Assembly (NCBI GenBank): GCA_025558095.1
Contig: JAIVFI010000036.1
Location: forward strand, 434,001-498,000
DNA: 64,000 nt
Reading direction: 5' to 3'
Source of the DNA: Hyaloraphidium curvatum
Taxonomy: Eukaryota > Monoblepharomycota > Hyaloraphidiomycetes > Hyaloraphidiales > Hyaloraphidiaceae
The position numbers were made by a program, and so were the translations under genes. Below are positions 13,649 to 64,000 of this stretch, one piece after another. Each line of letters begins with the position of its first letter. Positions within the stretch are counted from its first letter, which is position 1. The notes beneath the pieces were generated by a model. That model was not told where the DNA came from. It saw only the letters and a program-made list of their open reading frames with translations, and made no database searches.

Positions 13649-14200
13649 TCACCTAACCCGGGCCTCCATCATGACCGGCCTCCAGCTGAACCTCCTGCTC
13701 GCCGAGCTGCTCCCGCTGGCCCCGCTGTCCGCGCTCCCGGCGCTGTTCCCGGACCGAGCCGAGTCCCCGCTCCCCGCCGGCCCGAAGAGCAGCGGGTCCG
13801 TGAACTCGGTGAGGTCCGTCTCGACGTCCGAATCGTCGTCCCCCTCCCACGTGGGGAGAGGGTCGGCGGTGAGGCACTGCCAGCAGCAGCCCTCCCAGCC
13901 GCCGCCGTGCCCGCACGGGTCGGTTGGTGCCGGCCGCGGCCGCTGCCGTCTGCGGCACCGCGAGAGCGGCACCGAGTCCAGCGCCAGCTTCAGCGGGCCG
14001 AGAGGCAGCTGTGGCGGCAGTCTGCGTGTGGCGGAGATGGGGGCGGCGGCGGCGGGCGAGGGCGGGGATGCGTGCGGCGGGCGCGAGGACGACGCGGTCG
14101 GTGGTCGGCGCGCCGCGGGCGGCCACGAAAGGCGGGGCGACGGCGCGGCCGCGGCGGGCGGCGCCATGTCCGCGCTGTGGTGCTGTGATTGGAGTTCCAT
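13649..14200 (-). CDS. Family member A: CHCC-knuckle protein lacking the RVxF motif
   Basis: 183-residue Pro/Ala/Ser-rich, probably disordered protein. It carries the knuckle of the window's recurring family, DPCGHGGGWEGCCWQC (C-x-H-x7-C-C-W-x-C), in its middle. A long acidic/Ser segment follows (DDDSDVETDLTEF, repeats of SGNSAGSADSG) and a basic end SASRRFSWRPVMM. It has no [KR]-V-x-F...T-W element and no LPDLKxFW tail; a missed 3' exon could supply one, as the sequence before the stop (gttag/gtgaac) resembles a donor. The start is the Met that opens the Gln/Ser-rich head (MELQSQHH); a second Met lies 11 codons on. I would call it a family member on the knuckle alone. Confidence 0.5.
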   Translation of the reverse strand: MELQSQHHSADMAPPAAAAPSPRLSWPPAARRPPTASSSRPPHASPPSPAAAAPISATRRLPPQLPLGPLKLALDSVPLSRCRRRQRPRPAPTDPCGHGGGWEGCCWQCLTADPLPTWEGDDDSDVETDLTEFTDPLLFGPAGSGDSARSGNSAGSADSGASGSSSASRRFSWRPVMMEARVR

Positions 14201-14989
14201 TCTGCGGTGGTTTCGGTGTATGATTTGGGTGGTGTTGCGAGGCGGGAACCGGGTGGCCGGGAAGTCTATCGCGTCCCATCTCCAGCCGCGTCCCAGCGGG
14301 TCCCAACTTTCGGGACAGGTGGCGGTGAGCTCGCCCCGTGCCGCCGCGCACTCCGACCCCGGCAGCAGTTGATTAGCTATTTGTACCTTCCGGGCGGCCG
14401 GGTGGGAGGGCTCCCCGTGCATTTCCTGCTGAAGGGGGTTGTGCCGACGCGCCGGGTTCCCGCCGCAGTGCCGCCCGGCACCGCTTGGCCGCCGGCTGAC
14501 TCGACGTGCCGAGCGCGGTCGGCCCTCGCCATCCGGAAAACCAGTGGGGGGAAACTGGAACCGCCCATCTCCAAACGATCGGGACCCCGGGTCGTGCTGG
14601 GAACGGAACCATGGCTGCGCCCGATGCGAGCGTCCCCGTTCGCCACCGCCGTCCGGAAAGCGACCCTGCGGGACCCGGTCCCAAAAGGCGGCGTCCCTAG
14701 TGATCGGCGGTCGGGGCTTAACTCGCACCCCGCCACCTCAATTGGCCGGCGACGTCCGCTCTATGGCCGATTCGCACAGTCTTCCCGCTCACACTGCCGC
14801 ACCCGCGGCCGCCCCCTCTAGCAGCATCCATCGTTCCTCACAGCGTCCCCGGGCACGGATTCCCGCGCAGCCTCCGAAGCACCGCCCCCGCGACCGCCAG
14901 CCCGCGGAGCTCCTCCTGCCCGCTGCCGCTAAGCCGCCTTTCTCCAGCAGAGTTGCATCACCGGCCGGCGACAGCACCGGCCCCGCTCC
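14201..14989. other. Intergenic region, GC-rich
   Basis: Nearly 800 bases with long open frames on both strands but only low-complexity shadow translations. It should contain the promoter of gene A and the 3' end of gene B. Confidence 0.4.
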
Positions 14990-15850
14990 TCAGATCGTCC
15001 CCCGCCGCGGTATCGCCCGCAGCTTCCCGAGCACCGCGCCGACGACCTCCAGCCCCCGCAGACGGGCCTTCCCCCCGTTCCGTCCCCTGCTAGGCGTCTC
15101 ATCCTCCGAGCTGGATTCGGAGCTTAAGGAGCACGAATCCCCGCCGTCCTTCCCGGCGGGCGCGGGAAGCGACACCGGCACCCCGAACCCGCGGGGTAAG
15201 TCCTCTGCGCCCCAGGTGGCCGCGATGTCCTCGCCCTCGGCGAACGAGACCTTGCGGCGCATCGTCCCGGCCTCGGCGCGCTTCATGGCCGACCGCGGGA
15301 ACGTCGATGGCCTGCCCGGCCCGTCCCGTTCCGGATCCGGATCGGGATCGGCGTCCGGGTTGGGGAGGTGCGGGGATCCCATCTCGGTCCAGCATCCGAA
15401 GCAGAACCCGCCCCGGCCATGCGCGCATGCCCCCTCGGCCCAGGGCGGGCGCATCGGCGGGATGGGGATCGGTTTGGCCGGGGAGATCGGGGCCGAGCTG
15501 CCCTCAGAGGGGGAGGAGTACGAGAGCGACGAGGCCGAGAGGGTCGTGTCCGACAGCGACAGGTCCGAGAGGTCCGCGGAGCCCTGCCGGGGGACAAAGT
15601 CCGGGGGCGGCAGGCCCGGCAGAGAAAAGATGAAGCCGCGGTCGTGCTGCCTCGGCGTAACGGCATGTTCGGGGGTTCGGGGATCAAGGCCGGGGTGCGT
15701 GAATACGAATACGCCCGGCGCCGGGTCCTTCGCCGACAGCGCGCACAGCACCGTGGCCAGCTGGCCCGCCGTCATCGTCGCCTGCCCGGCGCCGTCCAGC
15801 GCGGGGAGCGAGGATGCCCGCGGCGGCGGGTGCGCGGCAAGGCCGGCCAT
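14990..15850 (-). CDS. Family member B: knuckle plus RVxF-x8-TWG protein
   Basis: About 286 residues with the start at Met 15850 (alternative Met 15775, MTAGQLATVL). Order: an N-terminal part with GVFVFTHPGLDP, a Ser-rich stretch (SDLSLSDTTLSASSL), the knuckle GACAHGRGGFCFGCW (C-x-H-x6-C-F-x-C), then RRKVSFAEGEDIAATWGAED, the basic RVxF followed 8 residues later by TWG. The usual [DE]-Y-x-R is changed to E-D-L-P-R. A Ser-rich acidic segment (SLSSESSSEDE) and a basic tail follow. No LPDLKxFW tail. The start is a guess, as the ORF is open far upstream. Confidence 0.6.
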   Translation of the reverse strand: MAGLAAHPPPRASSLPALDGAGQATMTAGQLATVLCALSAKDPAPGVFVFTHPGLDPRTPEHAVTPRQHDRGFIFSLPGLPPPDFVPRQGSADLSDLSLSDTTLSASSLSYSSPSEGSSAPISPAKPIPIPPMRPPWAEGACAHGRGGFCFGCWTEMGSPHLPNPDADPDPDPERDGPGRPSTFPRSAMKRAEAGTMRRKVSFAEGEDIAATWGAEDLPRGFGVPVSLPAPAGKDGGDSCSLSSESSSEDETPSRGRNGGKARLRGLEVVGAVLGKLRAIPRRGTI

Positions 15851-16789
15851 TCTCCGTCTCCCGTTCGCCCCGCTGCGGATCCTCCTCGCCTGTTCCCGCG
15901 CCGCCTTGCCGCGCCCTGCGGCCTGCCGTGCCCGGTATCCTCCGGTGGCGAGCGCGGTGTCCCCGCCGGGCCCCCTGGCCGCCCCAGATCCGATCGTGCG
16001 CGTCATCCGTGCCCTTTGGCGTTGCGTCGGCGGGTAGTCCGATCCCCAAGCCTGCGAAATGGGATCTGCGCCGGCCGCACCACCGGATCCGCGCACGGAG
16101 GGCGGCGGAGAAGCGCGGAGGTGCCTTATCGGAGGCGGGGGCATGCGGTCCGGACGCCGGGGGGGTGCGCGGGGCGAGGAAGATGGAGGATGCGGGAGGT
16201 GCGGAGGCCGCATGTGCGTTGCGCGGGGAGCGAGGATGCAGGCGGGAACCTCGCGCGCCCGGATTGCGGTGGATGCTGGTGCCGCGTTTACATATGTCCA
16301 TTCCATTTTCACACGCCCGGGGCTGCAAGCAGCGGTCCCCGACCCGCCGGCCAGGGACCCCCTGCCGGGCCGCCCGCCCCGCCGCAATCCGCCGCTTCCA
16401 ACCAACCCAACCCTCCCCGCCGCGCAGGCGGACCGGGACCCAAACCAACCGGGGACAAGGCAGCCGATCCATCCGCGGATCGATCCGCCCTTTCTGGCCC
16501 AGAGTTCCGGGGGTGTTTCGGCGCACCGCCCGATCCGATGTCGCCCCCCGCATCGTACGTCACACCCCCTGTCCCCTGCCGCGTGAATCCGCCGCGAAAT
16601 GCGCGCGGCGCGTCGATCTGCATCCATCCTACACGCTGGGGTGCGGATCGCCCGCGCGATGCGCCCGACACGGCATGCGGGCGGGGTCCGCCGGCGCCTC
16701 GGGGTCGCGGCGCCGCAGTTCGAGGGCCAGGGCTGTGTTCCCCAACGACTGCATTCAGACCTCCGCGGGCCCCGGATGACCCGGTAGCC
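15851..16789. other. Divergent intergenic region between family members B and C
   Basis: About 940 bases separating two divergently transcribed members of the same family; it must hold both promoters. Open frames here are GC-driven and give no recognisable protein. I see no repeat or RNA gene. Confidence 0.45.
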
Positions 16790-17371
16790 ATGGACGCGGA
16801 AAGGGCGGCGCTGGAGCGGCGGGCGGCCGAGCTCAGGCTGGCGTTGGAGCGGCGCGTGCCGCCCGCCGTGTCGTTCGCCCCGCTCTCGCCCGCGGCCGAG
16901 CACCCCGCCGACAAGAGCGGGGTGAGGTTCGTGCCGCTGCCCGGCAAGGGCGTGGAGAGGGGCGGGAGCGATGCGACGCTGGGGTGCGGGCACGAGGGAC
17001 CCGGAGGGGGCGGTTGCTGGGGGTGCCATTGGGCGGGGGCGGGGTTCACCCGGGCGGCGGCGCCGGACGCGAAGGCCGCGGACCATATGGATGGCGATGA
17101 GGACAATGAAGATGAGGAGACGGAGGCGGAGGCGGAGCAGGACGCGGACCCGATGCCGGCGGGGTGGAGGCCGCCCGAGATGGTGCGGCGCTTCCCGCTC
17201 GGCGCGCCCATTACGAGGTCGCACTCGTTCCCCGTGGCTTCGCTGCGCCCGCAGAGGCTGCCGCCGGCGGGCAGGTCGATCCTACGGACCGCGAGCGGGG
17301 GTTTGCCGGGGAGGGAGGGAAGGAGGGTGCGCTTTGACGGGGCCGTGGTGGTGTTTGGGGAGCCTTCGTGA
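16790..17371 (+). CDS. Family member C: short SILR-RVRF protein
   Basis: 193 residues. The N-terminus is a short charged helix (MDAERAALERRAAELRLALE). The knuckle is GCGHEGPGGGGCWGC (C-x-H-x7-C-W-x-C), then an acidic block (DGDEDNEDEETEAEAE). Near the C-terminus lie RSILRTAS and, 11 residues later, RRVRFDGAVVVFGEPS, which ends the protein. SILR fits the PP1-docking SILK consensus [GS]-I-L-[KR] and RVRF the RVxF consensus, in the usual order, but the T-W-S-x-x-E-Y-x-R part is cut off by the stop. Single exon as called; a missed 3' exon is possible. Confidence 0.62.
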   Translation: MDAERAALERRAAELRLALERRVPPAVSFAPLSPAAEHPADKSGVRFVPLPGKGVERGGSDATLGCGHEGPGGGGCWGCHWAGAGFTRAAAPDAKAADHMDGDEDNEDEETEAEAEQDADPMPAGWRPPEMVRRFPLGAPITRSHSFPVASLRPQRLPPAGRSILRTASGGLPGREGRRVRFDGAVVVFGEPS

Positions 17372-17546
17372 GGCGCAATGGGGTGAGGAAGGTAGGAGGG
17401 ACGGGCTCTTGTACAGGGGCGGTTGCTGGGTGATGGGAGTGCTGCGCCGGCGGAGGGGACTCCTGGTTGGGAAGCGAAAAAGAGGGCAGCGGTTCAGGTA
17501 TCGCTTTTCTTTCCGGCAACCGCGTCCGTCCACCAGGCTACAAGAC

Positions 17547-18374
17547 TCAACTCTGCACCGCTTCCCCGTCCCACACCGGCGCCCCCTCGTGCGGGAGCAC
17601 CCCCTGCCCCCCTCTCAGCCTCTCTATCGTCCCCCTCCCCCTCGTCCCGCCAAACAGCGCCAAGAAGCTCGCCGGCATCGAATCGCGGCGTATCCGCACC
17701 GACAGCATGCCCGGCTCCGGCAGGCCCCCGTCGAGGTCCGCGTCGTCGTCCTCGGTGTCGGTCCGGTCGTCCTCGTCCGAGGAGCACGAGCTGTAAGAGT
17801 CGTCCTGCCCCTCGCCGTTGCCGTCCAGGTCGCCCTCGGGCGGCCGCACGCCCTCGGGCCACTCCAGCCGGGCGTACTCGTGCTTGCCCCAGGTCTCGAA
17901 CACCTCGACGGCGTCGGAGAAGCGCACGTGCTTCACCGGGGGAGGCGGGGGGGCGGGGGGCCAGCCCGGGCGGGGGATGGGCGGGGCCAGGGAGGGCGGC
18001 AGCGAGGCTGGCAGCGAGAGGGACCGGAAGGAGGGTGTGGAGGGGGTTGGTTTTGCGGGCGGCGGGGCGAGGCGCGAGGGGGAGGCGGCGGCGCCGTCGT
18101 CGGGGGGCCCCGCCAGCCGCCCGCAGGCGAAGCAGAAGCCGGCCGCGTCCGGGGCGGCCGCGCACTCGGCGCAGTCCGAAACGTCCTCCGATGGCGCGGG
18201 CGCCGGCAGGAAGTCCGCCCACTCCGCGCCGCCGTCGACCAGCGTCGTCGTCGACGCCTCGTCGTGCCCCGGCGAGCACGCGGCGATCAGCCCCTGCACG
18301 AAGCCCGCGTCGCTCCGGCGGTACGAGAGGTAGCCGTCCGACCGAGCGCGCGGCACGCCCTCGTCGGTCCACAT
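17547..18374 (-). CDS. Family member D: CxxC/CxxC plus HVRF-x8-TWG protein
   Basis: 275 residues, convergent with gene C. The knuckle is a double C-x2-C (SDCAEC...GFCFAC, residues about 68-88) rather than C-x-H. A Pro-rich linker (PPSLAPPIPRPGWPPAPPPP) leads to KHVRFSDAVEVFETWGKHEY and then ARLEW, with the constant 8-residue spacing. A very acidic block (SSDEDDRTDTEDDDADLDGG) and a basic tail end the protein. No intron needed; start at the only Met upstream of the folded-looking head (GYLSYRRSDAGFVQGLI). Confidence 0.65.
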   Translation of the reverse strand: MWTDEGVPRARSDGYLSYRRSDAGFVQGLIAACSPGHDEASTTTLVDGGAEWADFLPAPAPSEDVSDCAECAAAPDAAGFCFACGRLAGPPDDGAAASPSRLAPPPAKPTPSTPSFRSLSLPASLPPSLAPPIPRPGWPPAPPPPPVKHVRFSDAVEVFETWGKHEYARLEWPEGVRPPEGDLDGNGEGQDDSYSSCSSDEDDRTDTEDDDADLDGGLPEPGMLSVRIRRDSMPASFLALFGGTRGRGTIERLRGGQGVLPHEGAPVWDGEAVQS

Positions 18375-19313
18375 CGCGGGGGAGCGCGCGGGGTGTTTTG
18401 ATTATTAGGCTTTGCTGGGAGAGGGCACGCCGACCAGGGCTGACCAATGCGCACCGCACCAAACAGGGGAAAGGGGTCCCGCGCGGCCCGCCGGGCCTCC
18501 GCCGCCGCGCCACCCCCCGGCCGGTCCATTGGTGCGCCGCCCCGGGGTTGCCCGCCCTTTTTCGGCGCCGCTGGGGATCTGGGGGGCACGCGATCCCAAC
18601 GGACCCCGGCGATCGGATCGACCCTGGAATTAGGTCCCTGTTCGACGTCACACCCCACTCACACCGTCCAACGAGCTTCCCCGCACCGGCAATGCACAAG
18701 AAACGACCGCCATCACCATCCCGACACGAACGTGCACGGCCGTCCGCGGGGGCGCATCCGCGTGCCCCGCTCGCACGGGCGAGGACGTCCCCGTGATTTG
18801 GGGTTCACTCGAATCGGCGCGTCGGGGCCCGCCCCGGTTGGGCCCGCCCCGGTCGGCGCGGGCCGACGGATCGGGGGGCTTGGCTCCGGCGTGGTCGATA
18901 GCTTTGGCTCGTTGAACGATGATGGGTGCCTGCGGCGGGGGGCCGGGGTGGGGGCAGGACGCCGGATGCCGCCGGTGGCGAACGGCGGCGGCGCCGGGGC
19001 GATAGGATCCCCGGCGCCCGAGCCCGATCCGGTTTCGCAGGCGCATGGGGGATGGATGCGGATCGCCGGTGGGAGTTTCGGGGTGCTGGAGTGAGGCAGA
19101 TGGGACGGAGGGGAGCCCGCGGCGGGTGGAGGGCTCACAGGTGCAATCTGGATGCCTCCGAGGTTCCGCTGCGGGCTTCCTGCCCACACCGGCGAGCGCC
19201 ATCGGCGAGCAGAGAGGGAGCCGGTCGGTGCAACACGTTATCTTACTCTGCCGCCGGCTTTGGCCCATCTAAATCTACCTCCAAATCTCCCGGGTCCGCC
19301 CACAGAACCCCCT
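18375..19313. other. Intergenic region
   Basis: About 940 bases between family member D and the nitroreductase, both on the - strand. GC-rich with short direct repeats such as two copies of gggcccgccccggt near 18838-18856. Open frames on both strands give only Pro/Arg/Gly-rich shadows. Confidence 0.4.
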
Positions 19314-20086: not shown

Positions 20087-20286
20087 TCCGGGGCGGCGCG
20101 GGGCGGCGGGCGCGGCAGGACGGGGAATAAAGTCCAAAGGGCGGGATTCGCGGTCCGGCGCGGCGATAGGAGGCGCACGGGGCGGGGGGCAGGGGCGAGG
20201 TGGCGGCGTTGTTTTCCCGCGGACCGAGCCGCCCGGGCGTCCCCCACAGGCAGAGCGCCTTCCGATCACGCAACCGTTCCCCGCGC

Positions 20287-21181: not shown

Positions 21182-21386
21182 CGCGATGAGGGAGGGAGGA
21201 AGGTCGAGCGAAGGAGAGGAGAGAAGGTGAAGAAATGGAGGAACGGGATTGAGGCCCGGAAGCGGAGGAGAGGATGGGGACCGGAAGTGGGTGGAGGCAA
21301 GTCAACAACCTGGGGCGTCTCCCACATTCGCCAACGATCACTCGCCAATCGGCGCAAATCACCATTGAAACCACCGCAGAAGCGCG

Positions 21387-22788: not shown

Positions 22789-24060
22789 ATGCCGGGCACG
22801 CCGGCCGCCGGCCTCATGGAGCGGAACGCCGACTTTGTGCGCGCCCTCATCGGCGGCGCCGGGCCGCGCCCCGGGGGGCCCGCGCCCGCGCCGCTCAAGC
22901 TGCCCGCGGTGACCGACGCCTCGTCGTCGGCCACGCTGTCTTCGCCGTCGACGTCGTCCGCGCGCACCGCGTCGTCCAACACGCTGCTGTCGCTGGGCGA
23001 GGCGTGGAGCGGCGCGCTGCCGCCGACGCCCGCCTCGTCGGCCGCAACCCCGCCCGTCGAGCCGCCGTGGTTCCTCGCCGCCGGCACGCCCGGCACCCCG
23101 GGCTCGCTCGCGCTCGCCACCTCGTACTTTTCGCTGCCGGTGTCGGGCCACCCGCCGGCAGGGCACGGCACCCCCGGCACCCCCGGCACACCCGGCTCGT
23201 TCGCCACCTGGGCAAACTCGTCGCTGCCGCAGCCGCCCTCGGGCCTGGCGCACTGGGGCCACTCCTCGCTGCCGCAGCCCGCCGGCGCACCGAACCACCC
23301 CTGGCCCCAGGCATGGCCCGCCCAGCCCCTCGTGCGGGCGGCGATCGCCGGCGCCGCAGCCGCCCCCACGCCCCCCGCCTCCCCGGCCGCGCAGCACCCC
23401 GGCGCAGGTGCTCAGGGCTACTTTGCCCTGGCCCCGCAGCACATCCTGGCCCCACAGCCGCCCGCGCGCCAGGTATCCCGCCGCATCGTGCCGCCCCCCG
23501 GGACGCTGCTGCCCGCCGCCCCGCCCTTTGCGTGCCCGCTGTGCCTCACGGACCCGTGCCCGCACCGCCGCGCGCAGACCGACCCCGGCCCGGCACCCAC
23601 CACGCGAGGAGCCGCCGACCCCGCCCTCTCCAACTCGCTCCCCCTCCCCGCCCCCGGCTCGACCGCCGCCCCCGCCCCGAACGACGCCCCCCGGGTCTCC
23701 CGCTCCGCCTCGGCGCCATCCGGCCCGCCCGCCGCCCGCTCCCTCTCCGAGCCCCCCGCCGGCCGCCGCCGCCCCCCGCAGAAGGTCTCCTTCTCGCGGC
23801 GCGTCGTCCGGCACGCCACCTACAGCAAGAACGACTACGACCGCACCGGCATCGAGGTCGGCGCCGAGGGGTGGGACGAGGAGGACTGGGAGGGGTTCGC
23901 AGAGAGCAAGGAGGGGCGGGAGGCGGTCAGGGAGGCGCAGAGGGCCGCGGAGGAGGCGTATGCGGCGCAGCTGGAGGCCGCGAGGAGGGTGTACGGGGTG
24001 CAGGGGGCCGCGGGGTGGGAGGGCGGGTACGATTGGAGCGGCGAGGGGAGGGCCGTGTAG
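22789..24060 (+). CDS. Family member F: long Pro-rich protein with the most spinophilin-like docking motif
   Basis: 423 residues. Start at MPGTPAAGLMERNADFV. The N-terminal two thirds are low complexity with GTPGTPG and near-repeats of SSLPQP (NSSLPQPPSGLAHWG, HSSLPQPAGAP). The Cys/His cluster is FACPLCLTDPCPHR (C-x2-C-x4-C-x-H), reversed relative to the other members. Then comes the docking element PQKVSFSRRVVRHATYSKND followed by YDRTGIEV, with 8 residues between KVSF and TYS. The C-terminus has an Ala/Glu-rich helix (EAVREAQRAAEEAYAAQLEA) and GWEGGYDWSG. No LPDLKxFW tail. Single exon. In spinophilin the corresponding element runs KIHF..TYSNEDYDR, so binding to PP1 is inferred. Confidence 0.75.
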   Translation: MPGTPAAGLMERNADFVRALIGGAGPRPGGPAPAPLKLPAVTDASSSATLSSPSTSSARTASSNTLLSLGEAWSGALPPTPASSAATPPVEPPWFLAAGTPGTPGSLALATSYFSLPVSGHPPAGHGTPGTPGTPGSFATWANSSLPQPPSGLAHWGHSSLPQPAGAPNHPWPQAWPAQPLVRAAIAGAAAAPTPPASPAAQHPGAGAQGYFALAPQHILAPQPPARQVSRRIVPPPGTLLPAAPPFACPLCLTDPCPHRRAQTDPGPAPTTRGAADPALSNSLPLPAPGSTAAPAPNDAPRVSRSASAPSGPPAARSLSEPPAGRRRPPQKVSFSRRVVRHATYSKNDYDRTGIEVGAEGWDEEDWEGFAESKEGREAVREAQRAAEEAYAAQLEAARRVYGVQGAAGWEGGYDWSGEGRAV

Positions 24061-24289
24061 CGGTCGCGGTTAGGAGGGCGGTGTATTGGACGCCCGTAGA
24101 CGAATGCAGCAGGCTGCAAATCGTTGGCCGGCCGGATCTCCTGCTCTTGAGATGCGCAAAGAGGCCGATCGGCCCGTCTTCCCCATCAGCTTTGGAGGCG
24201 TCGCGGACGCACGGGTAGCAGTCGATCGCGTGTGGGGGGGGCTCTCTGAAACGCGTCCACAAACAGTCCGGCCAGCCCCGCTCCGCCGC

Positions 24290-25732
24290 ATGGCGATGCT
24301 CCGCGCGATCGCCGCGCTGTTCCTCCTGGCGCTGGCGACGACGTTCATGCGGTGGGACTCGTCCGGCGCCGTGCCCGACGCGCCCGCGGCGTTCCCCGCC
24401 GCGCCGGTGCTCTCCCCGCCGCCCCCGCCGCGCCGCCCTCCGGAGCCCCCGGCCGCCGACCCGCCGCGCGACGCTCCGTCTCAGGAAGCCCCGCTCCCGC
24501 CGCCGCCCGCCAACGACGCGTTGGACGTGGCGGACCCGCCGCCGGACCCCTTCTCCAGCGTGCACCCCAAAACCCTGCAGGGCACCTTCGACCTCGCCGC
24601 GCCCGGGCTGGACGAGCTCGTGGCGCAGGGCGCTTTGCCGGGCTACGCGCTGTTGGTCTTCGACGGCCGCACGGGGAAGCTCGGATCGCGCTACGGCGGG
24701 TTCGCGGACGCCGAGCGCAACGTCAGGGCGTCGGAGGGGACGCTGTGGAGGTTCGCGAGCGTCACGAAAGCGGTGACCGCCGCGGCGGCGCTGGCGCTGG
24801 CGGAGCGGGGCAGACTGGACCTCAACTCGTGGGTCGAGAGGCACCTCCCCGAGTTCTCCTCCGCCTGGGTGTCGGCCAACGGGACCGACAAACAGCCGGC
24901 AAAGGAGAGGCTCAAGGTGGTGCATTTGCTGACCATGACGGCCGGGTACCCGTACGCTCCCCCCGAGCCCGCGCCCGGCGACCCGTACCGCGGGCTGGGG
25001 TTCAAGGGGTGGTACTTTTCCTCGGACTCGGTCCCCATCCGCGAGCGGGTGGGCGTGCTCGCGGGCGTCGCGGCGCGGCACGAGCCGGGGGAGGCGTGGA
25101 CCTACGGGTACGCTTCCGACATCCTGGGCGCCGTCCTGGAGGCGGCTGCGGGGGAGCCCCTGGACGCGCTGTTCCGCTCGCTGCTGTTCGACAGCGTCGG
25201 CATGAACTCCACGGCCTTCTTCGTGCCCCCGGGAAGGGAAGCCGACCTCGCGGCCGTGTACCTGACCGGCACCAACGGGCTGGAACGCGCGCCCGACGGC
25301 GCCGGCACCGCCGCGCAGGGGGACTACGCCTCCGGCCCGCGCAGGTGCTTCTCGGGCGGCGCCGGCCTGGTGGGCACCGCGGGGGACTTCCTGCGGTTCG
25401 CGAGGATGCTCCTCGCCAACGGCTTCCTGGACGGCGCGAGGGCGATGAAGCTCGCGTCCGTGTCGATGATGCGGCGGCCGTGGGTGCGGTCGCTCTACGG
25501 GAACGGGAACGCGGCGTGGGGGTTCTCGGTCGAGGTGAGGCCCCGCGGGAAGCCGACGGAGTACGGCTGGGCGGGGGCGTACGGCACCGCGTTCGCGGTG
25601 GTACCCGGGAGGGGGTGCTGGGTGTTTGCGTCGCAGGTGCTGGGCGGGGGGAGGGCCAGGGCGCAGGCGAGGGCGAGGGAGGCGGCCGGGGAGGCGCTGG
25701 CTGTGGGGGTTCGGGGGACGGAGGGGGGTTGA
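24290..25732 (+). CDS. Secreted or membrane-anchored serine hydrolase of the beta-lactamase/class C fold
   Basis: 480 residues, one exon. The N-terminus (AIAALFLLALATTFM) is a signal peptide or anchor, followed by a Pro-rich stalk. The catalytic Ser157-x-x-Lys160 lies in FASVTKAVTAAAALALAERG, the Tyr motif in WTYGYASDILGAVLEAAAG (about residues 272-274), and a Gly-rich end motif in YGWAGAYGTAF where class C enzymes have H-x-G or K-T-G. Such proteins in fungi are esterases, transesterases or peptidases rather than antibiotic-resistance enzymes. Start chosen for the signal sequence; upstream frame stays open to 24086. GC content and lack of introns match a gene of bacterial origin, but this is weak evidence. 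Confidence 0.88.
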   Translation: MAMLRAIAALFLLALATTFMRWDSSGAVPDAPAAFPAAPVLSPPPPPRRPPEPPAADPPRDAPSQEAPLPPPPANDALDVADPPPDPFSSVHPKTLQGTFDLAAPGLDELVAQGALPGYALLVFDGRTGKLGSRYGGFADAERNVRASEGTLWRFASVTKAVTAAAALALAERGRLDLNSWVERHLPEFSSAWVSANGTDKQPAKERLKVVHLLTMTAGYPYAPPEPAPGDPYRGLGFKGWYFSSDSVPIRERVGVLAGVAARHEPGEAWTYGYASDILGAVLEAAAGEPLDALFRSLLFDSVGMNSTAFFVPPGREADLAAVYLTGTNGLERAPDGAGTAAQGDYASGPRRCFSGGAGLVGTAGDFLRFARMLLANGFLDGARAMKLASVSMMRRPWVRSLYGNGNAAWGFSVEVRPRGKPTEYGWAGAYGTAFAVVPGRGCWVFASQVLGGGRARAQARAREAAGEALAVGVRGTEGG

Positions 25733-26320: not shown

Positions 26321-27010
26321 ATGCCGGACGGCGGTAACCCGCCTTCCCTCTTCCACGTTGTGCCCGCGCCGGCCCCGCCGCACGCCGCCGCCCGCGCGGT
26401 TCTCCCGCCCGCGCGCAAGGCCTCCTTGGACTCACAGGGCGGCGCGTGGCACTCCGCCGCCGCCGGACACGCATCCGAGCTGCTCTCCGCACTCCCCGCA
26501 CCCGGGTCCGCGGGGCGCTGGAGGTGCCCGCACTCGGACCCCTTTGGGGACGCCGAGGGCCACTGCTACCCCTGCCTTGCGGCCCTGGCGCGGCGGGCCT
26601 CCGAGCCCGGAGCGGAACGGCACCGCTCCCGAGCCCGCGGGGTGCTGCGGAGGACCGCCAGCGCGCCGCTGCCGAGGCGGAGGGTGTGCTTCGACCCCCA
26701 CGTCGCGTTCGCGGAGACGTGGGGGCCGGAGGAGTACGATCGGGGGATCCGGGTGCGCTCCGAGCCGCCCGTCGAAGAGGACGGCGACGAGGATACGGAG
26801 GACGACGGGGAGGAGGTGTGCGCCAGCCCGGACTCGGGGGTGGGCGAGCTCTGGACGGGGGTGCCGGAGCCGGCGGGTTTGCCCGATCTGAAGAGCTTCT
26901 GGGGAAAGGACGGGGGGCGCAGGGAGGCCGGGGTGCGGTGGAGGGCGAGGCCGGCGGATTCGTTGGGTAGGATGGGGAGCGAGGTCGTCGGGACTCGGTT
27001 CCACGTGTAA
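26321..27010 (+). CDS. Family member G: complete architecture (knuckle, RVxF-x8-TWGPEEYDR, LPDLKSFW)
   Basis: 229 residues, single exon; the fullest example of the family. Order: Ala/Pro-rich head; knuckle WRCPHSDPFGDAEGHCYPC (C-x-H-x9-H-C-Y-x-C); RGVLRRTAS, close to a SILK motif; RRRVCFDPHVAFAETWGPEE then YDRGI; an acidic stretch (EEDGDEDTEDDGEE); and ELWTGVPEPAGLPDLKSFWG. The gap between R-V-C-F and T-W-G is 8 residues. The same WTG.x-EP..LPDL[KR].FW tail is found in member I. Convergent with an F-box-like gene whose stop is only 49 bases away. Confidence 0.75.
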   Translation: MPDGGNPPSLFHVVPAPAPPHAAARAVLPPARKASLDSQGGAWHSAAAGHASELLSALPAPGSAGRWRCPHSDPFGDAEGHCYPCLAALARRASEPGAERHRSRARGVLRRTASAPLPRRRVCFDPHVAFAETWGPEEYDRGIRVRSEPPVEEDGDEDTEDDGEEVCASPDSGVGELWTGVPEPAGLPDLKSFWGKDGGRREAGVRWRARPADSLGRMGSEVVGTRFHV

Positions 27011-27059
27011 CACGAAAATGCACGGCAACTTCATTGGACGAAATGCACTGCAAATCGCA

Positions 27060-28944: not shown

Positions 28945-31320
28945 ATGGCCCTCGAGACAGCGGACGACGACGACGACAACGATCGGGCGGTCGTGCCGGT
29001 GCGAATCCGCACGCGGGGGCTGCCGGCGGCCGGCGGCGTGGCGTGGGCGGCGGCGCACATCTTCGCGGGTGCGGACCCGCGGCAGCGCCTCGCGGTGGTG
29101 CCGGCGGCCGTGGCGGCGTTCCCGGACGACGACGCGCGGCTGACCGGCGACGGGTTTTCGATGCTGCTGAAGGCGGGGCTGGCAGCCCGCCCGCCAAAGT
29201 CGCTGCCGCTGTGCGACGCCGGCGTGCTCGAGTGCCTCTCGCCGGGGGAAGCGCACAGATGCGAGCCGCGGCTGCGTGCGCTGTGGTCCTCCGAGCTCAT
29301 CGTCAACCTCCTGCTGTGGCTGGGCGCACGCTCGGCAATCACCGGAGCCGTGGCGGGCTCCGAGGTTGTGTCGCACGTGCTTCCGCTGCCCGCCGTGGCC
29401 GCCAGGCTCGAAGCCCGTCTGGAGCGCATTCTGCGCACGGAGCTGGCCGCGTTCGCCTCGGAGGCTGCCGCCGCCGCCGAGGGCAGGCCGGCATCGCTCC
29501 TCACGCCCCGGTTCGCGGCACTGCAGATCTCGCTCGCGTGGGCAGCCACCCTGGGCCTGACGGCGCTCTCGCGCTCCTCCGTCGCCGTGACCTTCCTGAA
29601 GCTCCTCCTGTTTGTCTGGCGGGCCTCATGCTTCCTGCATGCCCCGCAGCACGCCAGCCTCGACGACGTGGTCTACCGCGAACACTTCCACTTTGCCGTT
29701 TGGCTGGCGCACAACACGCACGCCGCGCTGCGCGCCACGGGGGCAATCGAGGAGCCGCTGTTCGACGCCGCCAAGGAATTCGGCGCCGTCCCCCTCCCCC
29801 TGCCCTTTTCCCTGATGGCGGACCTCCCCCCCTCCTCGGGACGCCCGCGGAAAGCACCCGTGCCGGACATCATCGCCGCGGTCCCCCGGGCGACCTTTGC
29901 CGAGGTCGTCCGGATCACCGACCCCGTGCGGTCGCCGCTGCCCGGGGGCATGCACCGCCGCGTGCTCTCGCGGTGCGCTTCGAACCTCTTCGCGTACGGC
30001 ACCTCGCAGTTCGTCCCCCTGGTTTTGAACGCACACGCCGCCGCCGCCGAGTTTGCCTCGTGGCTCCGCGTGCGGGCGGGGCTGTCGGTGCTGGACGTCC
30101 TGGTCGCCGAGGCGCTGTCGGCGTTTGCCCGCGCCGATCCGGCGCTGGACATGCTCCCCGCCGGGTACCTCCCGGCGCTGGCATCCAACCCCCACATCGC
30201 CGAGGCCGTCTCGCGGCGGCGGCGGCTGGCCGACGGCGTGGCGGCGATCGAGCGCGGACTGCCCACAGGCCTCTTGGACGCGGTGCGGGGGAACGATCCG
30301 GAGCTGCTCGCGCGCGTGGTGCCCCCGACGGTGGATATGGGCGAGACGTCGCAGATCGTGGGGTACGTGACGGTGCTGGGTCTCGCGGGGATGCTGCTCG
30401 TGGCCCCCGAGCCGTTCGCGGACCTGTCGCGGGTGCTCCCCGGGGACGGCGAGTCGGCCATGTGGGACAGTGCGTCGGAGCTCCGCGGCGGCGACCTGTC
30501 CGGGACCTTGTCGTCCTCCAGCGACTCGGCGGGGGAGGACGCAAACCCCGCCGCGGGCCTGGTGCGCTTCTGGTTCTCCACACCCTCGTGCCGCCTCGCT
30601 GCGCAGCTCGCCTCCTCCGTCTCGGGCAACCTCCGCCTGCTCTCGCGCTTCCCCTCCCGGAGCGCCGCGACCCTGTACGTCTCGTGCGTCTCGGCGACCT
30701 CCGCGGCGTGGATGCACCTCCTGCTGCTGCGCAACTTCTCCGCGCTCTTCTCGGGCGCGGATGCGGCAAGCATGTCGCGCGCGCTGGACATCCGTGCGCT
30801 GCTCGCCGCCGACGTGCGCGCGTGCATCGCGGTGCTCGAGCTCCCCGGCGCGCCGCAGTACGCCTCGGCGGCGTCGCTGCTGCGGCAGCTGCTCTCCGAC
30901 TCGGGAGCGCGCATCACCCGCGGCGAGATGCAGCTCCTGCGGATGGCGCGGAGGGAGATGTCCGGGTGCCGCCACGCCGAGCGGGGGGAGGACGACGGCG
31001 CGTGCTGGGCGTGCCTGTCGGGGGTGAGGGGGGACGACCCGATGGCGGGGATCGAGGCGCCCGAGATCCCCGCGGGGAGGTCGCCGCAGATGGCCGGGTC
31101 GCCGGGCGGGAAGAGGGTCAGGTTCGACGCCGAGGTGAGGGTGGCGGTGACGTGGTCGGCGGACGAGTACCCGGGGAGGTCGCAGCGCGCGGCGGACTTT
31201 GTCGGAGAGGGGGGGGAGGAGATGGAGAAGGAGAGGGCGGCGAGGGCCGCGGAGAAGTGGGCGGCGCTAAGCGCGCTGCGGCGTGGGATGCAACCGGAGG
31301 GGAGAGGGGTGCAGGCCTGA
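28945..31320 (+). CDS. Family member H: large helical protein with C-terminal knuckle and RVRF-x8-TWS module
   Basis: 791 residues from Met 28945 (MALETADDDDDN). The first ~690 residues are rich in Ala/Leu helices (SSELIVNLLLWLGARSAI, FLKLLLFVWRASCF, TLYVSCVSATSAAWMHLLLL), loosely like the middle region of fungal transcription factors but without a zinc cluster; I cannot assign it. The last ~110 residues carry the family module: GCRHAERGEDDGACWAC (C-x-H-x8-C-W-x-C), then GKRVRFDAEVRVAVTWSADE followed by YPGR, again with 8 residues between F and T. No LPDLKxFW tail. The module thus occurs fused to a large domain, suggesting it is a portable docking unit. Single exon. Confidence 0.72.
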   Translation: MALETADDDDDNDRAVVPVRIRTRGLPAAGGVAWAAAHIFAGADPRQRLAVVPAAVAAFPDDDARLTGDGFSMLLKAGLAARPPKSLPLCDAGVLECLSPGEAHRCEPRLRALWSSELIVNLLLWLGARSAITGAVAGSEVVSHVLPLPAVAARLEARLERILRTELAAFASEAAAAAEGRPASLLTPRFAALQISLAWAATLGLTALSRSSVAVTFLKLLLFVWRASCFLHAPQHASLDDVVYREHFHFAVWLAHNTHAALRATGAIEEPLFDAAKEFGAVPLPLPFSLMADLPPSSGRPRKAPVPDIIAAVPRATFAEVVRITDPVRSPLPGGMHRRVLSRCASNLFAYGTSQFVPLVLNAHAAAAEFASWLRVRAGLSVLDVLVAEALSAFARADPALDMLPAGYLPALASNPHIAEAVSRRRRLADGVAAIERGLPTGLLDAVRGNDPELLARVVPPTVDMGETSQIVGYVTVLGLAGMLLVAPEPFADLSRVLPGDGESAMWDSASELRGGDLSGTLSSSSDSAGEDANPAAGLVRFWFSTPSCRLAAQLASSVSGNLRLLSRFPSRSAATLYVSCVSATSAAWMHLLLLRNFSALFSGADAASMSRALDIRALLAADVRACIAVLELPGAPQYASAASLLRQLLSDSGARITRGEMQLLRMARREMSGCRHAERGEDDGACWACLSGVRGDDPMAGIEAPEIPAGRSPQMAGSPGGKRVRFDAEVRVAVTWSADEYPGRSQRAADFVGEGGEEMEKERAARAAEKWAALSALRRGMQPEGRGVQA

Positions 31321-38887: not shown

Positions 38888-39460
38888 TCATTCGCTCAGC
38901 GCGGGCCAAAAGGCCCTCAGGTCCGGCAGCTCCGGCGGCTCCTGCGCTCCCGTCCACAGCTCTCCCAGCGACGGCGTCGGGCTGACCGACCCCGGCATCT
39001 GCCCCAGCTGTCCGCCGTCGTCGCTGTCCGGGGAAGCGGCGCGGCCTGGCCTGTTCGGGGCCTGGAGCGCAGCGGCAAGGGCGGCACCCGGGGGCTGGCC
39101 GGTGCTGCCCGCCGGGTCCGGCTTGTCCACAATTCTGGGTGCCAAATGGGAAGGCATCGAACTCCAAGGCTGCAGGGAGCCGGGCACACCGGCGGCCGCG
39201 CCCTGTTGCGGGGGGTTGCTAAGGCCCCATTGCGGCCTGTCTGGTTCCGACATCCGCCGGGCCACGGCCGAGACACATTGCCAACAACATCCATCGACGG
39301 GTCCCGGTTGGTGCGCGCAGGTAATGGCGGGCACGGCAGGCGCGGGGTTCGCGTGCAGGGCCGAGCTCCTCGAACGCGTTGCGGGCGGGGTTGGCCCCGC
39401 TGCGGTGCCCGACGCCGCGGCCTCCGCCGGCCGGCCGCGGTCGCTGCCGCCGCCGGTCAT
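38888..39460 (-). CDS. Family member I: knuckle plus LPDLRAFW tail, RVxF missing
   Basis: 190 residues, single exon. Knuckle ITCAHQPGPVDGCCWQC (C-x-H-x8-C-C-W-x-C) in the first third, nearly the same as in member A. The C-terminus LGELWTGAQEPPELPDLRAF, then WPALSE, matches member G. Between them there is no [KR]-V-x-F...T-W element, only low-complexity Pro/Ala/Gln sequence with PRIVD; an exon may be missed or the docking motif lost. Start MTGGGSDRGRPAEAA is the first Met after the upstream gap. Confidence 0.6.
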   Translation of the reverse strand: MTGGGSDRGRPAEAAASGTAAGPTPPATRSRSSALHANPAPAVPAITCAHQPGPVDGCCWQCVSAVARRMSEPDRPQWGLSNPPQQGAAAGVPGSLQPWSSMPSHLAPRIVDKPDPAGSTGQPPGAALAAALQAPNRPGRAASPDSDDGGQLGQMPGSVSPTPSLGELWTGAQEPPELPDLRAFWPALSE

Positions 39461-57080: not shown

Positions 57081-57252
57081 CGGGTGGAAGACGCGCGTCG
57101 GCTGATGTCAACAAAGGACGCGCAAGCGTCGTCCTTCCTCAAGTCTCGAGATGCTCTTCGCGGGGCTCCTCTTCAGAGCCTTCGGATGGCGTTCTAAGCC
57201 CGCGAACACTCCCGTACCGACCCTCTATGCCCGCTCCCTGGCCCCGCCGGCG

Positions 57253-59009: not shown

Positions 59010-61807
59010 ATGCCGCGCTCCCGTGCCGCGCCGCGTGTGGCGCTCGTCGCGCTCCTCGCCGCGCTGCTGCTCGCGCTCGCCGCGCTCGCGTCCGCCGCGG
59101 AGGTCGGCCCAAACATGAACAACCGGCGGAGAACCACCACGCGCCGCCGCGCGACGACCACGCGCCCGGGCGCCTACCGGGTGGGGCCGCCGCGGGCCGC
59201 CGCCGCGCCGCGCTGACCGCCCCGCCGCCCGGCAGACCGTGAGCGTCAAGCTGCGCCTCTTCGACGACCGGAACGGGAACGGCCGATTCGACGCCGGCGA
59301 CGTCGGCTACGCGAACCGCAACATCGTCATTATCCGGCCGCAGCCAAAGAACGTGCGCTATGTCCGCGCCACCCTCCGCACCGACGCCGCCGGCTGGGCC
59401 CGCGGCAGGATGGTCATCATGCCCAATGGTGGCTTCATCGTGGCCCGCAAGGAGGTGCCCAACGTCAACATCGCCACATTCAACTGGCCCAACGGCGCCC
59501 TGTCGCCCACCCTGGTCGTGCCGCTCCTGGTGGGTTGCCAGACGCGCGGCCGAGCCCCAACCATTCACGCCCTGATCCCGTTCCTTTCAGGCTCCCCGAC
59601 CGGCCGGCACCCCTGTCCGCTTCGAGATTGGCAACAACGGACTGAGCTGCGGCCCGAGCGGCTGCACGATGACGGAAAGCGGCGGAGGTGGACTTTCTCC
59701 TCCGATCCCTGCCATCGAACCCCGTTCACTAACAATGAGAACGCCACAGAATCCTTCCAACCCCTGTGCCCGCCCGGCGTGTCGGCCCCCTGCACCGCCG
59801 TGTACCTCAAGGACTCTTCCGGCCTCTGTCTGGGCGTCCGCAGCGGCACCCCCCGGACTTTCACCCTCGGCACCTGTCCCACCGCGCCACGCCGCCTGAT
59901 GGCGCGGCAGACGATCGACTTCCTCGCCACCCTCGGAGCCGGCGGCTCGCTGTGCTTCCCGGCTTCGGGCGTCTGCATGGGCGAGGAGGGCGACCCCGTT
60001 CCCCCGGCCCAGGCGCCGTCCTTCACCCAGGTTCCCGCCACCGCGACGACCCAGGCGACTACAGCCACCACCGCCGGGCAGGCAACCACCACGGTCTTTG
60101 CTCAGCCTCCGCCTACCACGACCCAGGCGCCTGCAGCCACCACCGCCGCGCAGGCAACCACCACAGTCTTTGTTCAGCCTCTGCCTACCACGACGGTCGC
60201 CCCTCTCGTCCCGACTACCACGGTGCCCCCTCTTCCGCCGACGAGCACGAGCACCGCGACCCCGAGCCCCGTGAGCTGCGCCCGGAGCACGGACTGCCCG
60301 GTCGGCACCTGCGTGGGAGGCACGCCCTACACCGACGTGTCTGCCCAAGCCGGTGTCGGAGTCGGATCGGTTTGCAACGGCATCGGGGAGGGCACCGGCG
60401 TCGGGTTCAGCTGCTCCATCCTCGTCTCCGGCACCACCGAGTGCGGCAACCAGTGCGCGGCGATCTGTGCCGCCGAGAACCTGAAATCCGGCAACCGGCT
60501 CAGCTACCCCAACTACGCCGCTCTCATGTTCAACAGCGGCAACAACGCAACCTTTTGCGGGTGCGCGCAGCAGTGCGGACCCGTATCCAATCTTCCCACG
60601 TACACCACGACGTTCCTCGAGATCAAGGGGATCTGCAACGCCAGCATCGAGCACCGCACGACCTCTACCCTCACCACGGCGACACGCACCACGCGAACCA
60701 CCGTGACCTCCACGAGCATGACCACGTCGACCCCCGGCTGCCTCGTCAATACCTACGCCGGCACCGGCACCGCCCAGAGCTCGGGCGACGGCGGCGACCG
60801 TCTCGATGCGAGCTTCTTCGCCCCCGCCGGCATCTGCCTGGATGCATCCGGCAACCTGTACGTGGTCGAGATGGGCGCGTACCGCGTGCGCCGGATAGAC
60901 AAGACCACGGGGATCGTGACGACGTTCGCCGGGAACGGCACGGATCCCAGCCTCATCGGGGTCCGGGATCTCGGTGACGGCGGGCCGGCCACGGAGGCGG
61001 CGCTCATGACTCCGAACTCGTGCACCTTCGACCCTGCCGGCAACATGTACATCACCGACACGACACAGGTCCGCAAGGTCGACACGAGCGGCATCATTTC
61101 CACCGTCTTCAACAAGGGGAACCAGGGCTTCAGTAACCCCGGCAGCGGCGACGGCGGGCCGGCCGTGGACGCTCGGATCGAGGACACACAGGGCGTCGCC
61201 GCCCTCCCCGACGGGACGGTCCTCATCGGCACCTACTCCGGCGGCACCATCCGCAGCATCTCGTCGGGCGGCATCGCCGGCACCGTTGCCAACAACACCC
61301 CCGACGGCTTCTTTGCCCTGGCACCGCAGGGCACCGGGGTGCTGGTCTCGACCCTCTACACGGTGCGCAACTACGACCCGTCCAACTTCAACGCCTTCGA
61401 TCCCGTGGCGGGGACCGGGTCCTTCGGATCCGACGGCAACGGCGGGTCGGCCACATCGGCGTCCCTGGCGTTTCCCAGGGGCATCGCGCTGGATGCGGCG
61501 GGCAACATCTTCCTGGCGGACTCGGCCAACAACCAGGTAGGTCGCCCGCGGCGGGCCGTCGGCGGCGGGCTGACCGTGTCCAAAGATCCGCGTCATCTCC
61601 GCCGCCAACGGCAACATCTACGCCTTCGCGGGGATCGGCTCCGCGGAATCGACCGGCGACGGCGGGCCCCCGGACCTGGCGGGGACCAACAACCCGTACG
61701 GCGTGGCCTACGATGGCGCGACGGGGAGGATCTACTGGTCCGAGCAGGACGGAGCGAGGATCCGCTTCGCTTCCGGGCCCGAGTGCGGGCCGCCGCCTGC
61801 CTCTTAG
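59010..61807 (+). CDS. Secreted NHL-repeat beta-propeller protein with SdrD-B-like, Cys-rich and Thr-rich segments
   Basis: Five exons, 59010-59180, 59236-59529, 59591-59687, 59750-61536, 61586-61807; 856 residues. Signal peptide RVALVALLAALLLALAALAS, then TTTRRRATTTRP. A beta domain with VSVKLRLFDDRNGNGRFDAG resembles SdrD-B/CNA-B folds. Next are Cys-rich parts, two similar Thr/Pro linkers (QATTTVFAQPPPTTTQAP and QATTTVFVQPLPTTTV), and a second Cys-rich block (CARSTDCPVGTC, CGCAQQCG). The C-terminal half is an NHL propeller, with repeated patterns such as GDGGDRLDASFFAPAGICLD, SGNLYVVEMGAYRVRRID, GNIFLADSANNQ and GRIYWSEQDGARIRF. Probably an extracellular binding protein. Introns 55, 61, 62 and 49 nt. 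Confidence 0.85.
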
Positions 61808-62451
61808 GCCTTTCGGATCGAGCAAGGAGGAGGATGTCAACAGAGGAAGGAAGCTTCGTCTTGGCGTACCATGAGTATGGCTGTGGAACTATACAATGAA
61901 GCATTCAGAGCCGTGTTTCTTTCCGATATCGATTCCTGGAAGCGGTGGGCGCCCGGCATGCTGGCCAGGGCGACGGTGGTCGGGCCGTTCAAGGAGATCC
62001 ATAAGGCGGCGGGCACTGAACTCGGTATGGTCGTTTCAAGTCGGTGAGGAAGATTGCGAACGGGTTTTGGGTCAATTGGGGCGCGTTCGATGTGCGGAGA
62101 AGGTGTGACTCCGTGTGACTCGGAGGGTCCCGGCCCCGGGAGATATCCTCGTTTTGGCGAGCCGCCGTTTCCACGCACGATCGCGGGATCGTTGCGTCCT
62201 CTGCAAAAATCTGCTCCCTCTCCAAGCGGGGACAGATTGTTCGGAGAGCTGGACGCAGATTGGACGGCCGGGGCGCCTTGGTCCACATCGTTGCTGGAGG
62301 ACGCCGATAGGGCGCACTAGCAGTGAATCGGGGTATCGGAGCCATGTTCGAACTCGGGGCAACTGCCCCACAACCTTGCTTTACATGCCACTCCATTCGC
62401 ATGCGGTCCGACCAAGGGCCTATTGCGCGCGAAGTCAGGCGGCTGTCCTGC
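61808..62451. other. Intergenic region (convergent gene ends)
   Basis: About 640 bases between the NHL gene (+) and family member J (-). Moderate GC; no gene, RNA or repeat recognised. Confidence 0.4.
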
Positions 62452-63123
62452 TCAAGTCGGCACCGCGACCGGCTCCCCGCGGCGTCCCGCCGCCCAGAAC
62501 GCCTTCAGGTCGGGGAGCTTCCCCGCGTTGTCTCCGCGCTCGAGCCAGCCGAACGCCGAGAGGCTCCCCGAGGATGCCCTCCGCGGCCGATCCGGCGGCT
62601 CGGGGCCTGCGGAGAGCGCGCTGGCGGATGCCCGCCTTGCCAGCTGCGCGGCAGCTTGCATCGCAGGAGGTGCTCCCGCGCCGCCATCGTCGTCCGAATC
62701 GTCCGAGTCGCCCTCGGGGAAGGAGGTCGCGAGCGCGGACCCCCGCTCGTAGTCATCCGGCGACCAGGTGGTCCCGAGCAGCACGGTGGCGTCGAACGCC
62801 ACCTTCTTCCGCTGCCCGAGGCGCATCTGGGTACGGCGCAGCGCCGAGCGCACCGGGGACGGGTCGGCCGGCCTCCCCAGGGTCACCTCGCAGAGGCACA
62901 AACAGAGGCAGTGCCAGCACGCGCCCTCGCCGCCGGCGCAGCACTCCGCCTCCGCCGGCGCAGCGGGGGGGAGGTAGAGGTCCATCGAGTCTCGGGCGGT
63001 CGAAGCGGAGAAGGCAGGAAGGTGGGGGTAGAGGGAGGAAGGGGCGGCGCTCGGGGAGGCGCCGAGGAGCGTGCGGTCCGACGGCGCCGGCGACGCGGCG
63101 CGGGGGCCCGGGGTGACGGCCAT
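62452..63123 (-). CDS. Family member J: complete architecture (knuckle, KVAF-x8-TWSPDDYER, LPDLKAFW)
   Basis: 223 residues, single exon. Order: Pro/Ser-rich head; Cys cluster ECCAGGEGACWHCLCLCLC; SPVRSALRRTQ, close to a SILK motif; QRKKVAFDATVLLGTTWSPD then DYERGS (8 residues between F and T); acidic EGDSDDSDDDGG; PRRASSGSLSAFGWLERGDN; and KLPDLKAFWAAGRR. The last two elements recur almost unchanged in the partial gene at the right edge, so the two are close paralogues. R-R-A-S is a possible PKA site. Confidence 0.75.
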   Translation of the reverse strand: MAVTPGPRAASPAPSDRTLLGASPSAAPSSLYPHLPAFSASTARDSMDLYLPPAAPAEAECCAGGEGACWHCLCLCLCEVTLGRPADPSPVRSALRRTQMRLGQRKKVAFDATVLLGTTWSPDDYERGSALATSFPEGDSDDSDDDGGAGAPPAMQAAAQLARRASASALSAGPEPPDRPRRASSGSLSAFGWLERGDNAGKLPDLKAFWAAGRRGEPVAVPT

Positions 63124-63374
63124 CGCGGGAAGGCGGGGCGGGTGCTGCTGCAGTTGGTCCAGCGGTGCTCTGTGCGTTCAGGATGAAGTGTTGCGAGTGG
63201 TGGGCGTGCGCCCTTCGTGACGCGCCAGATCCTCACGCGCCCTGCGCCCCTGGCCGACCGACCCTCGAAAACCCCAAAGCGTCGGCGCCGTCGGAACAAC
63301 CCGCTCCACGCTCGCGCTCCCGATCGCTCGCCCCAGTCATTCCGCCGCATCCCACGGACCCCTCCGCGCCGTCG

Positions 63375-63397
63375 CCCCCCCCCCCCCCCCCCCCCCT
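63375..63397 (+). repeat. Poly-C run (23 C)
   Basis: Uninterrupted C homopolymer in the region upstream of family member J; the reverse strand is poly-G, so G-quadruplex formation is possible. The exact length is hard to sequence and may be wrong. Confidence 0.9.
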
Positions 63398-63673
63398 CGC
63401 CGCGCGATCCGAGTGTCCCAATGTGACTCGCCGCACAGCCACGAGGCCCCTATGGCGAGGGCCCTGCCGCGTCATGGGCCGACCTCCGTCCGGCCGAAAA
63501 ATACGCAAGGCACTCCGGGGCACTTCTTTGGAGCGAGATATGTGGCAGGTGCTCCGTGCACCGTGTCGGAAAGGGCGCAGCACGCTGGACGCGCCCGCGG
63601 CCATTCCTGCCATGATGCGCCGCCGACAAACAAGCGGAGCACGGGATGTGTCACGGGACCGGGAATCAACGTA

Positions 63674-63711
63674 GAAGCCCAAACGTCCGTGGTGAAGCCC
63701 AAACGTCCGTG
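63674..63711 (+). repeat. 18-base direct repeat, two copies
   Basis: GAAGCCCAAACGTCCGTG occurs at 63674-63691 and again at 63694-63711, 20 bases apart. Too short to call a mobile element; could be a binding-site pair or simple slippage. Confidence 0.8.
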
Positions 63712-63811
63712 CATTCCTGGGCTACATGATGGCATGTCCGCGCCGACCCGGTATCTCCAACTGGCACGCCCCAATCAGGTCGTCCTCGACGCCGCGCGTC
63801 CCCTCATCAAG

Positions 63812-64000
63812 TCAGCGCCTCCACCGACCTCTCCCTTCTCCCGGGTCCCCAGAAGGTCTTCAGGTCCGGCATCTTCCCCGCATCCCCGTCCTGCTCGAGC
63901 CAAAAGGCCGAAAGCGTGCCCGACGACGCCCTCCGCGGTGTGCACAGCGGGACCATCGTCGGGGAGCTGTAGGCCGGGGCCACCGGCCGGTGCGAGGGCG
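63812..64000 (-). CDS. Family member K: C-terminal fragment cut by the window edge
   Basis: The last 62 codons of a - strand gene whose start lies beyond position 64000; stop (tca on +) at 63812. The readable end has PRRASSGTLSAFWLEQDGDA and GKMPDLKTFWGPGRRERS, matching member J position by position (PRRASSGSLSAF..., KLPDLKAFW). No knuckle or RVxF is visible because that part is outside the window. Confidence 0.75.

Follow-up and report, generated by a model that had tools for sequence, protein, structure and literature searches.

What role can be assigned to a cluster of mostly small proteins that share short motif blocks in a fixed order? The cluster lies in a window of 64,000 nucleotides (the whole stretch analysed; C36:434001-498000, where C36 is contig JAIVFI010000036.1) of the 31.9 Mb, 55-contig genome of Hyaloraphidium curvatum, a monoblepharomycote fungus that lacks flagella and was formerly classed as a colourless alga (PMC8371127, excerpt). 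The initial annotation of this window had proposed ten small proteins that dock on protein phosphatase 1 (PP1). We found three ordered modules common to the loci: a Z module (C-x-H...C-[WYF]-x-C), a V module (RVxF-x8-T[WY]...[DE]Y..R) and, close to the C terminus, an F module (PDL[KR]x[FY]W). The V segment resembles the segment with which some animal proteins grip PP1 and is a putative docking site. We consider it reasonably probable that the loci belong to a family of PP1 regulatory subunits, of the RVxF-PhiPhi-R kind, that has expanded in this lineage.

The loci in the window and their modules are as follows.

13649..14200, minus strand: locus A, a small protein of 183 amino acids (start MELQSQ) or 172 amino acids (start MAPP), predicted start; Z module at 13874-13915, no V and no F module by the patterns used
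14990..15850, minus strand: locus B, with V and Z modules
16790..17371, plus strand: locus C, with a Z module and a cut-short V module
17547..18374, minus strand: locus D, a small protein of 275 amino acids
18285-18314, minus strand: N motif SDAGFVQGLI of D
18123-18173, minus strand: Z-like module of D, CAECAAAPDAAGFCFAC
17868-17930, minus strand: V module of D
17673-17690, minus strand: RRDSMP of D
22816..24060, plus strand: locus F, 414 amino acids from MERNADFVRALIGG, predicted start
23533-23565, plus strand: Z-like CPLCLTDPCPH of locus F
23737-23754, plus strand: RSLSEP of locus F
23782-23844, plus strand: V module of locus F, KVSFSRRVVRHATYSKNDYDR
26321..27010, plus strand: locus G, with Z, V and F modules
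28945..31320, plus strand: locus H, about 791 amino acids, a member of the large-protein class, with Z and V modules
38888..39460, minus strand: locus I, with Z and F modules, no V module by the patterns used
62452..63123, minus strand: locus J, 223 amino acids
62908-62943, minus strand: Z-like module of J, CCAGGEGACWHC
62743-62805, minus strand: V module of J
62494-62517, minus strand: F module of J, LPDLKAFW
63807..64000, minus strand: C-terminal part of locus K within the window, with F module MPDLKTFW at 63849-63872
C36:497810-498835: whole open frame of K, with Z and V modules past the window end
C36:498105-498130: T[WY]...R part of the K V module, just outside the window

The V core in B, D, F, G, H and J consists of [KRH]-V-x-F, exactly 8 residues and T-[WY]-[SG]-x-x-[DE]-[YL], with the Arg 2 residues past the core in B, D, F, G and J and 3 residues past it in H; locus F is a variant with N before D in the module. 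Six such loci had been described at the outset, and this description holds, with the spacing exact. A seventh, C, had been counted among the [KRH]-V-x-F loci and has only the cut-short form, RRVRFDGAVVVF, ending a few residues later. The RVxF motif, first taken as the shared feature, is present but is an incomplete account of the family, as the Z module (in A, B, C, G, H and I, with variants in D, F and J) and the C-terminal PDL[KR]xFW (in G, I, J and K) are also conserved. Nor are all ten proteins small: H belongs to the large class. K is cut by the window end.

The low-complexity sequence of these loci raises the possibility that the small open reading frames (ORFs) are GC-rich chance frames or pseudogenes, and the one small-gene model seen, that of I (P0002), is itself the window's own translation. 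Against this, the V, Z and F matches in the window are far above chance: V had 6 matches, strict V 5, Z 6 and F 4, compared with means of 0.03, 0, 0.02 and 0.13, respectively, when the window was simulated 60 times with a second-order Markov model. After the residues of 1278 ORFs (150 amino acids or longer) had been shuffled, similar patterns gave V 0, Z 1 and F 0. Six small genes (G, J, K and three past the window) look coding, with a GC content of 0.89-0.96 at third codon positions versus 0.61-0.76 at positions 1 and 2 and a ratio of nonsynonymous to synonymous substitution (dN/dS) of about 0.46-0.83 in six pairs, although high third-position GC holds dS down and the ratios are rough. The module order is also kept throughout the genome: at 23 of 28 places found from the F pattern alone, Z and/or V lies upstream in the same frame. 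Dropped from the 28 were C31:14398, which lies in a protein-kinase frame (L046), and C35:249696, in a frame of 22 amino acids (L047). In the large class, the public gene model P0003 agrees with our reading of the C42 DNA, one splice junction excepted; P0003 and P0004 are the database hypothetical proteins DFJ74DRAFT_760379 and DFJ74DRAFT_775183 of H. curvatum and fall in this family. Chance frames or pseudogenes are thus an extremely unlikely explanation.

Ser or Thr occupies the x of RVxF in 19 of the 48 distinct V modules; this position acts as a phospho-switch in other PP1 regulators. Standard spacing is kept in 41 of the 48, in which the V of RVxF is present in 41/41 and the F in 40/41 (with one Y), residue classes that the pattern demanded. 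More informative are positions that no pattern demanded: R or K stands four places before the Phe in 35/41, V four places after it in 34/41, and V or I six places after it in 30/41. These two hydrophobic positions alternate and are not adjacent as in a PhiPhi pair. The R element is present about 17-19 residues past the Phe, as an Arg two or three residues after the Tyr in 48/48 modules. The call for Arg was built into the DNA pattern for 20 of these; all 28 modules that the DNA pattern missed, many of them found by similarity to module-bearing members, keep it (13 at the second residue, 15 at the third). The positions demanded by no pattern would agree with an RVxF-PhiPhi-R string, of the type described as RVxF-PhiPhi-R-W (PMC12185105, excerpt).

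A profile of the 48 V modules was searched against 177,635 PDB sequences and gave nine matches at E<=10. Ranks 1 to 5 were neurabin-1, spinophilin (two sequences), neurabin-1 and PPP1R15A (E 0.003-0.032), followed by KNL1 (CASC5), which we take to be a PP1 binder, and the viral DP71L, presumably a relative of PPP1R15A. A PP1 catalytic chain is present in at least 7/9 of the matched entries (9gsu, 3egg, 3egh, 3hvq, 4xpn, 9nb9 and 7nzm) and in at least 6/7 of the top-ranked ones, and a reversed profile of the 41 standard modules gave no PDB match. Because the V pattern echoes the earlier neurabin analogy, profiles of whole large-class proteins were also used. Profiles A3 and A4, some rows of which (L003, L007, L026) came via protein D or the V pattern, each gave four PDB matches, to neurabin and spinophilin only, at the V module (E 0.004-0.031). 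Profile A7 was built from eight proteins obtained from the F pattern, the A4 database search or similarity to the V-bearing small member L037, and again four neurabin/spinophilin sequences ranked first (E 0.27-0.81). The Pfam model PDZ_5, which we take to cover the PP1-docking segment of neurabin and spinophilin, matched 10/48 V modules (best E 0.0027). The neurabin/spinophilin rank is therefore steady and its significance appears moderate. The proposal of PP1 regulatory or targeting subunits gains from the top seven V-profile matches, all PP1 regulators, but the profile free of the V pattern reaches only the E-values given for A7.

Several observations weigh against a PP1 role. The V-profile match is partly by construction, as the V pattern was shaped by the neurabin analogy; ranks 6 and 7 have weak E-values (0.14 and 0.9), and rank 8 is HERC2 (E 2), ahead of a PPP1R15A fusion (E 3.3). 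Two unrelated proteins follow directly in the A7 search (E 0.92 and 1.5), DUF4618 matched 3/48 V modules in the Pfam scan (best E 0.072), and PF17817 had no match in this genome or in any control genome. Within the window, the stretches between modules are of low complexity, locus C lacks the R part of V, and no V module was found in A and I with the patterns used.

In an alternative, the conserved tail of a large protein family binds some partner other than PP1, such as the helical domain of the protein itself; the likeness to the neurabin PP1 string is then convergent and the small loci are tail-only offshoots. The 19 tails read among the 45 large-class loci (Z in 19/19, V in 18/19, F in 10/19) are joined to a conserved region of large size, and Z persists in A and I, with F in I, where V is absent. 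The Z profile had no PDB match, and we know of no PP1 role for the Z or F modules. This alternative does not readily account for PP1 regulators taking the top PDB ranks with all four profiles (V, A3, A4 and A7), or for the fit to the PP1 string of residues that no pattern demanded, and we regard it as rather unlikely, though to be taken seriously.

PP1 regulatory subunits would need a catalytic partner, and two PP1-type catalytic genes, L076 and L075, were found in the genome. A 104-amino-acid C-terminal query from L076 gave 37 PDB matches at E<=1e-40, of which 34 are named PP1 and the remaining three are FAP15 and two entries named "serine/threonine-protein phosphatase". L076 keeps the stretches HQVVEDGYEFF and LMCSF, which we take to be the RVxF pocket. 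Judged by these matches, L076 is an ordinary PP1 catalytic subunit, so that a candidate partner is present in the genome. The partner could instead be L075, a PP1-like enzyme on C25 and the second STPPase_N place above the cut-off; with a standard PP1 catalytic subunit available in L076, this is very unlikely.

The clustering of the loci was confirmed and proved larger than first described. The cluster extends past the window to about C36:507.8 kb and holds 16 members in 60 kb; six of these (C36:499053-507844; L073, L074) lie directly after K on both strands, one with a Z module alone. Searches of the genome, which the initial annotation had suggested, found the family throughout: at least 45 large-class loci, H among them, and at least 41 places with mostly small proteins. 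Both counts rest on best-candidate lists and include a few doubtful entries. The 41 places correspond to about 43 genes, two neighbour pairs (C with D; 506.0 with 507.0 kb) being merged. Local expansion is one part of this: 13 of the 41 listed small-protein places fall within this cluster and 28 outside it, as do all but one of the 45 listed large-class loci. Protein database searches, in which 8000 candidates were scored each, returned only three proteins of this genome, and for this reason we make no claim on other species.

Four doubtful places were counted: C28:31972 (L041), which has neither Z nor V; C18:5796 (L038), with incomplete modules; C21:220871 (L039), possibly part of a large-class locus; and C23:87619 (L013), a PF04082 protein. 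From a list of 8 rows, C35:342145 and C6:586800 were left out and C31:331652 is a large-class locus; from a list of 16 rows, C38:40017 and C45:73099 were added, one was already counted and the rest are large class. New places at E 0.004-0.6 (C2:220712, C11:794856, C38:314765, C46:27930 and C8:399716) were left uncounted, and six weak rows of 85 (C14:265713, C23:693348, C45:28527, C26:69203, C37:511399 and C8:513983) were left unclustered. Three pairs of places have equal scores (C33:167122 and C53:12630; C2:248997 and C55:15035; C10:42653 and C51:10831). Because of these scores, C53:12630 and C55:15035 may be C33:167122 and C2:248997 counted twice, and the equal scores suggest that C51, C53 and C55, all small contigs, duplicate stretches of larger ones, whether as assembly duplicates or as very recent copies. 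On C8, two inverted large-class genes about 7 kb apart (802475-804457, minus strand; 811485-813447, plus strand) are 97% and 82% identical in two parts and form an inverted duplication of probably recent origin.

Two further ORFs were noted on the plus strand of the window. One of the beta-lactamase family (PF00144) at 24086-25732 lies between F and G within the cluster, and a single ORF at 44423-46537 has matches to two families, one of glycosyltransferases (EryCIII-like, C-terminal) and one of Rce1-like proteases.

Taken together, the data allow a broader and more tentative proposal: in this unicellular, aquatic and little-studied fungus, about 80 paralogous putative PP1 subunits may form a fast-evolving single family. 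Its two forms would be carriers of a large domain and competitors consisting of the tail alone, and their common docking string and common C-terminal partner peptide would make up a combinatorial phosphatase-targeting code, reached via gene-family expansion and standing alongside any ordinary PP1 regulators. PP1 regulators number about 30 in budding yeast and more than 100 in mammals and are described as structurally unrelated (PMC6506691, excerpt). If the proposal is true, one homologous family of such size, in a genome in which two PP1-type catalytic genes were found, would be an unusual route to phosphatase specificity. The 48 natural variants of one docking string would provide material for learning what PP1 tolerates, and a large protein set of an early-diverging fungus, tested members of which have no Pfam family, would gain a hypothesis of function.

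Among known systems, the large class invites comparison with the Fungal_trans/MHD proteins (PF04082; PMC10141177, excerpt), as the large-class gene L077 appears to recall MHD. None of the 45 listed large-class loci has a PF04082 place (98 compared) as near as 1.5 kb or a Zn_clus place (120 compared) as near as 3 kb, although three have a Zn_clus place within 6 kb; by comparison, 18 of the 30 best PF04082 places have a Zn_clus place within 3 kb. This placement speaks against Fungal_trans or Zn2Cys6 transcription factors. Three large-class frames and both L077 exons matched no Pfam family at E<=10. Outside the large class, a V-type module at C23:87619 (L013) ends a frame that lies 1.3 kb downstream, on the same strand, of a PF04082 place with a 772-amino-acid open frame; the docking tail may thus occur in a second type of protein. 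Other repeats were seen among these places: three equal-score Zn_clus places on C40 (80236, 85427 and 90618), spaced by exactly 5,191 bases, are probably a tandem array, and equal-score Fungal_trans matches on C25 (4796, minus, with 28295, plus; 15094, plus, with 18304, minus), symmetric about one point near the contig start, probably mark a large inverted repeat.

The CCC motif of Inhibitor-3 (PPP1R11) lies C-terminal to its RVxF. In the present family the Cys module precedes V in every listed ORF with both, including 11 of the F-pattern set. Inhibitor-3 is alike in being a short protein that joins RVxF to a cysteine module (PMC10066265, excerpt). It differs in the reversed order of the two and in its cysteine pattern. 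It is the model for a further possibility, that these proteins bind PP1 and mainly inhibit it, the Cys/His module reaching the active-site metals as CCC does. The pairing of RVxF with metal-type cysteines in one short protein (PMC10066265, excerpt) would suit this, as would the C, H, C and C shared by 31/31 aligned Z modules, residues that the pattern itself had demanded; yet Z comes before RVxF where CCC (residues 60-62; PMC10066265, excerpt) follows it, and C-x-H...C-x-x-C looks like a structural zinc site. We judge such inhibition improbable and prefer a regulatory subunit of the RVxF-PhiPhi-R kind.

For that kind, the nearest likeness is to neurabin and spinophilin (PPP1R9A/B), the best PDB matches of the four profiles, which share an RVxF-like site, a hydrophobic strand and T-Y-S-x-E-[DE]-Y-D-R with its Arg. 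Neurabin has one residue more between F and TY, and both proteins carry a PDZ domain after the PP1 string; G, J and H matched neither PDZ nor any other Pfam family at E<=10, and we know of nothing in neurabin or spinophilin that corresponds to the Z or F module. The analogy drawn at the outset thus stands for the V module, which ranks these proteins first, and the predicted relation is a resemblance in one module, not family membership. The RVxF-PhiPhi-R-W proteins (Phactr, PNUTS, PPP1R15) are alike in their RVxF-PhiPhi-R order (PMC12185105, excerpt), and PPP1R15A and DP71L, on this side, are among the V-profile matches; their W follows the R (PMC12185105, excerpt), whereas the conserved W/Y of the present family precedes it.
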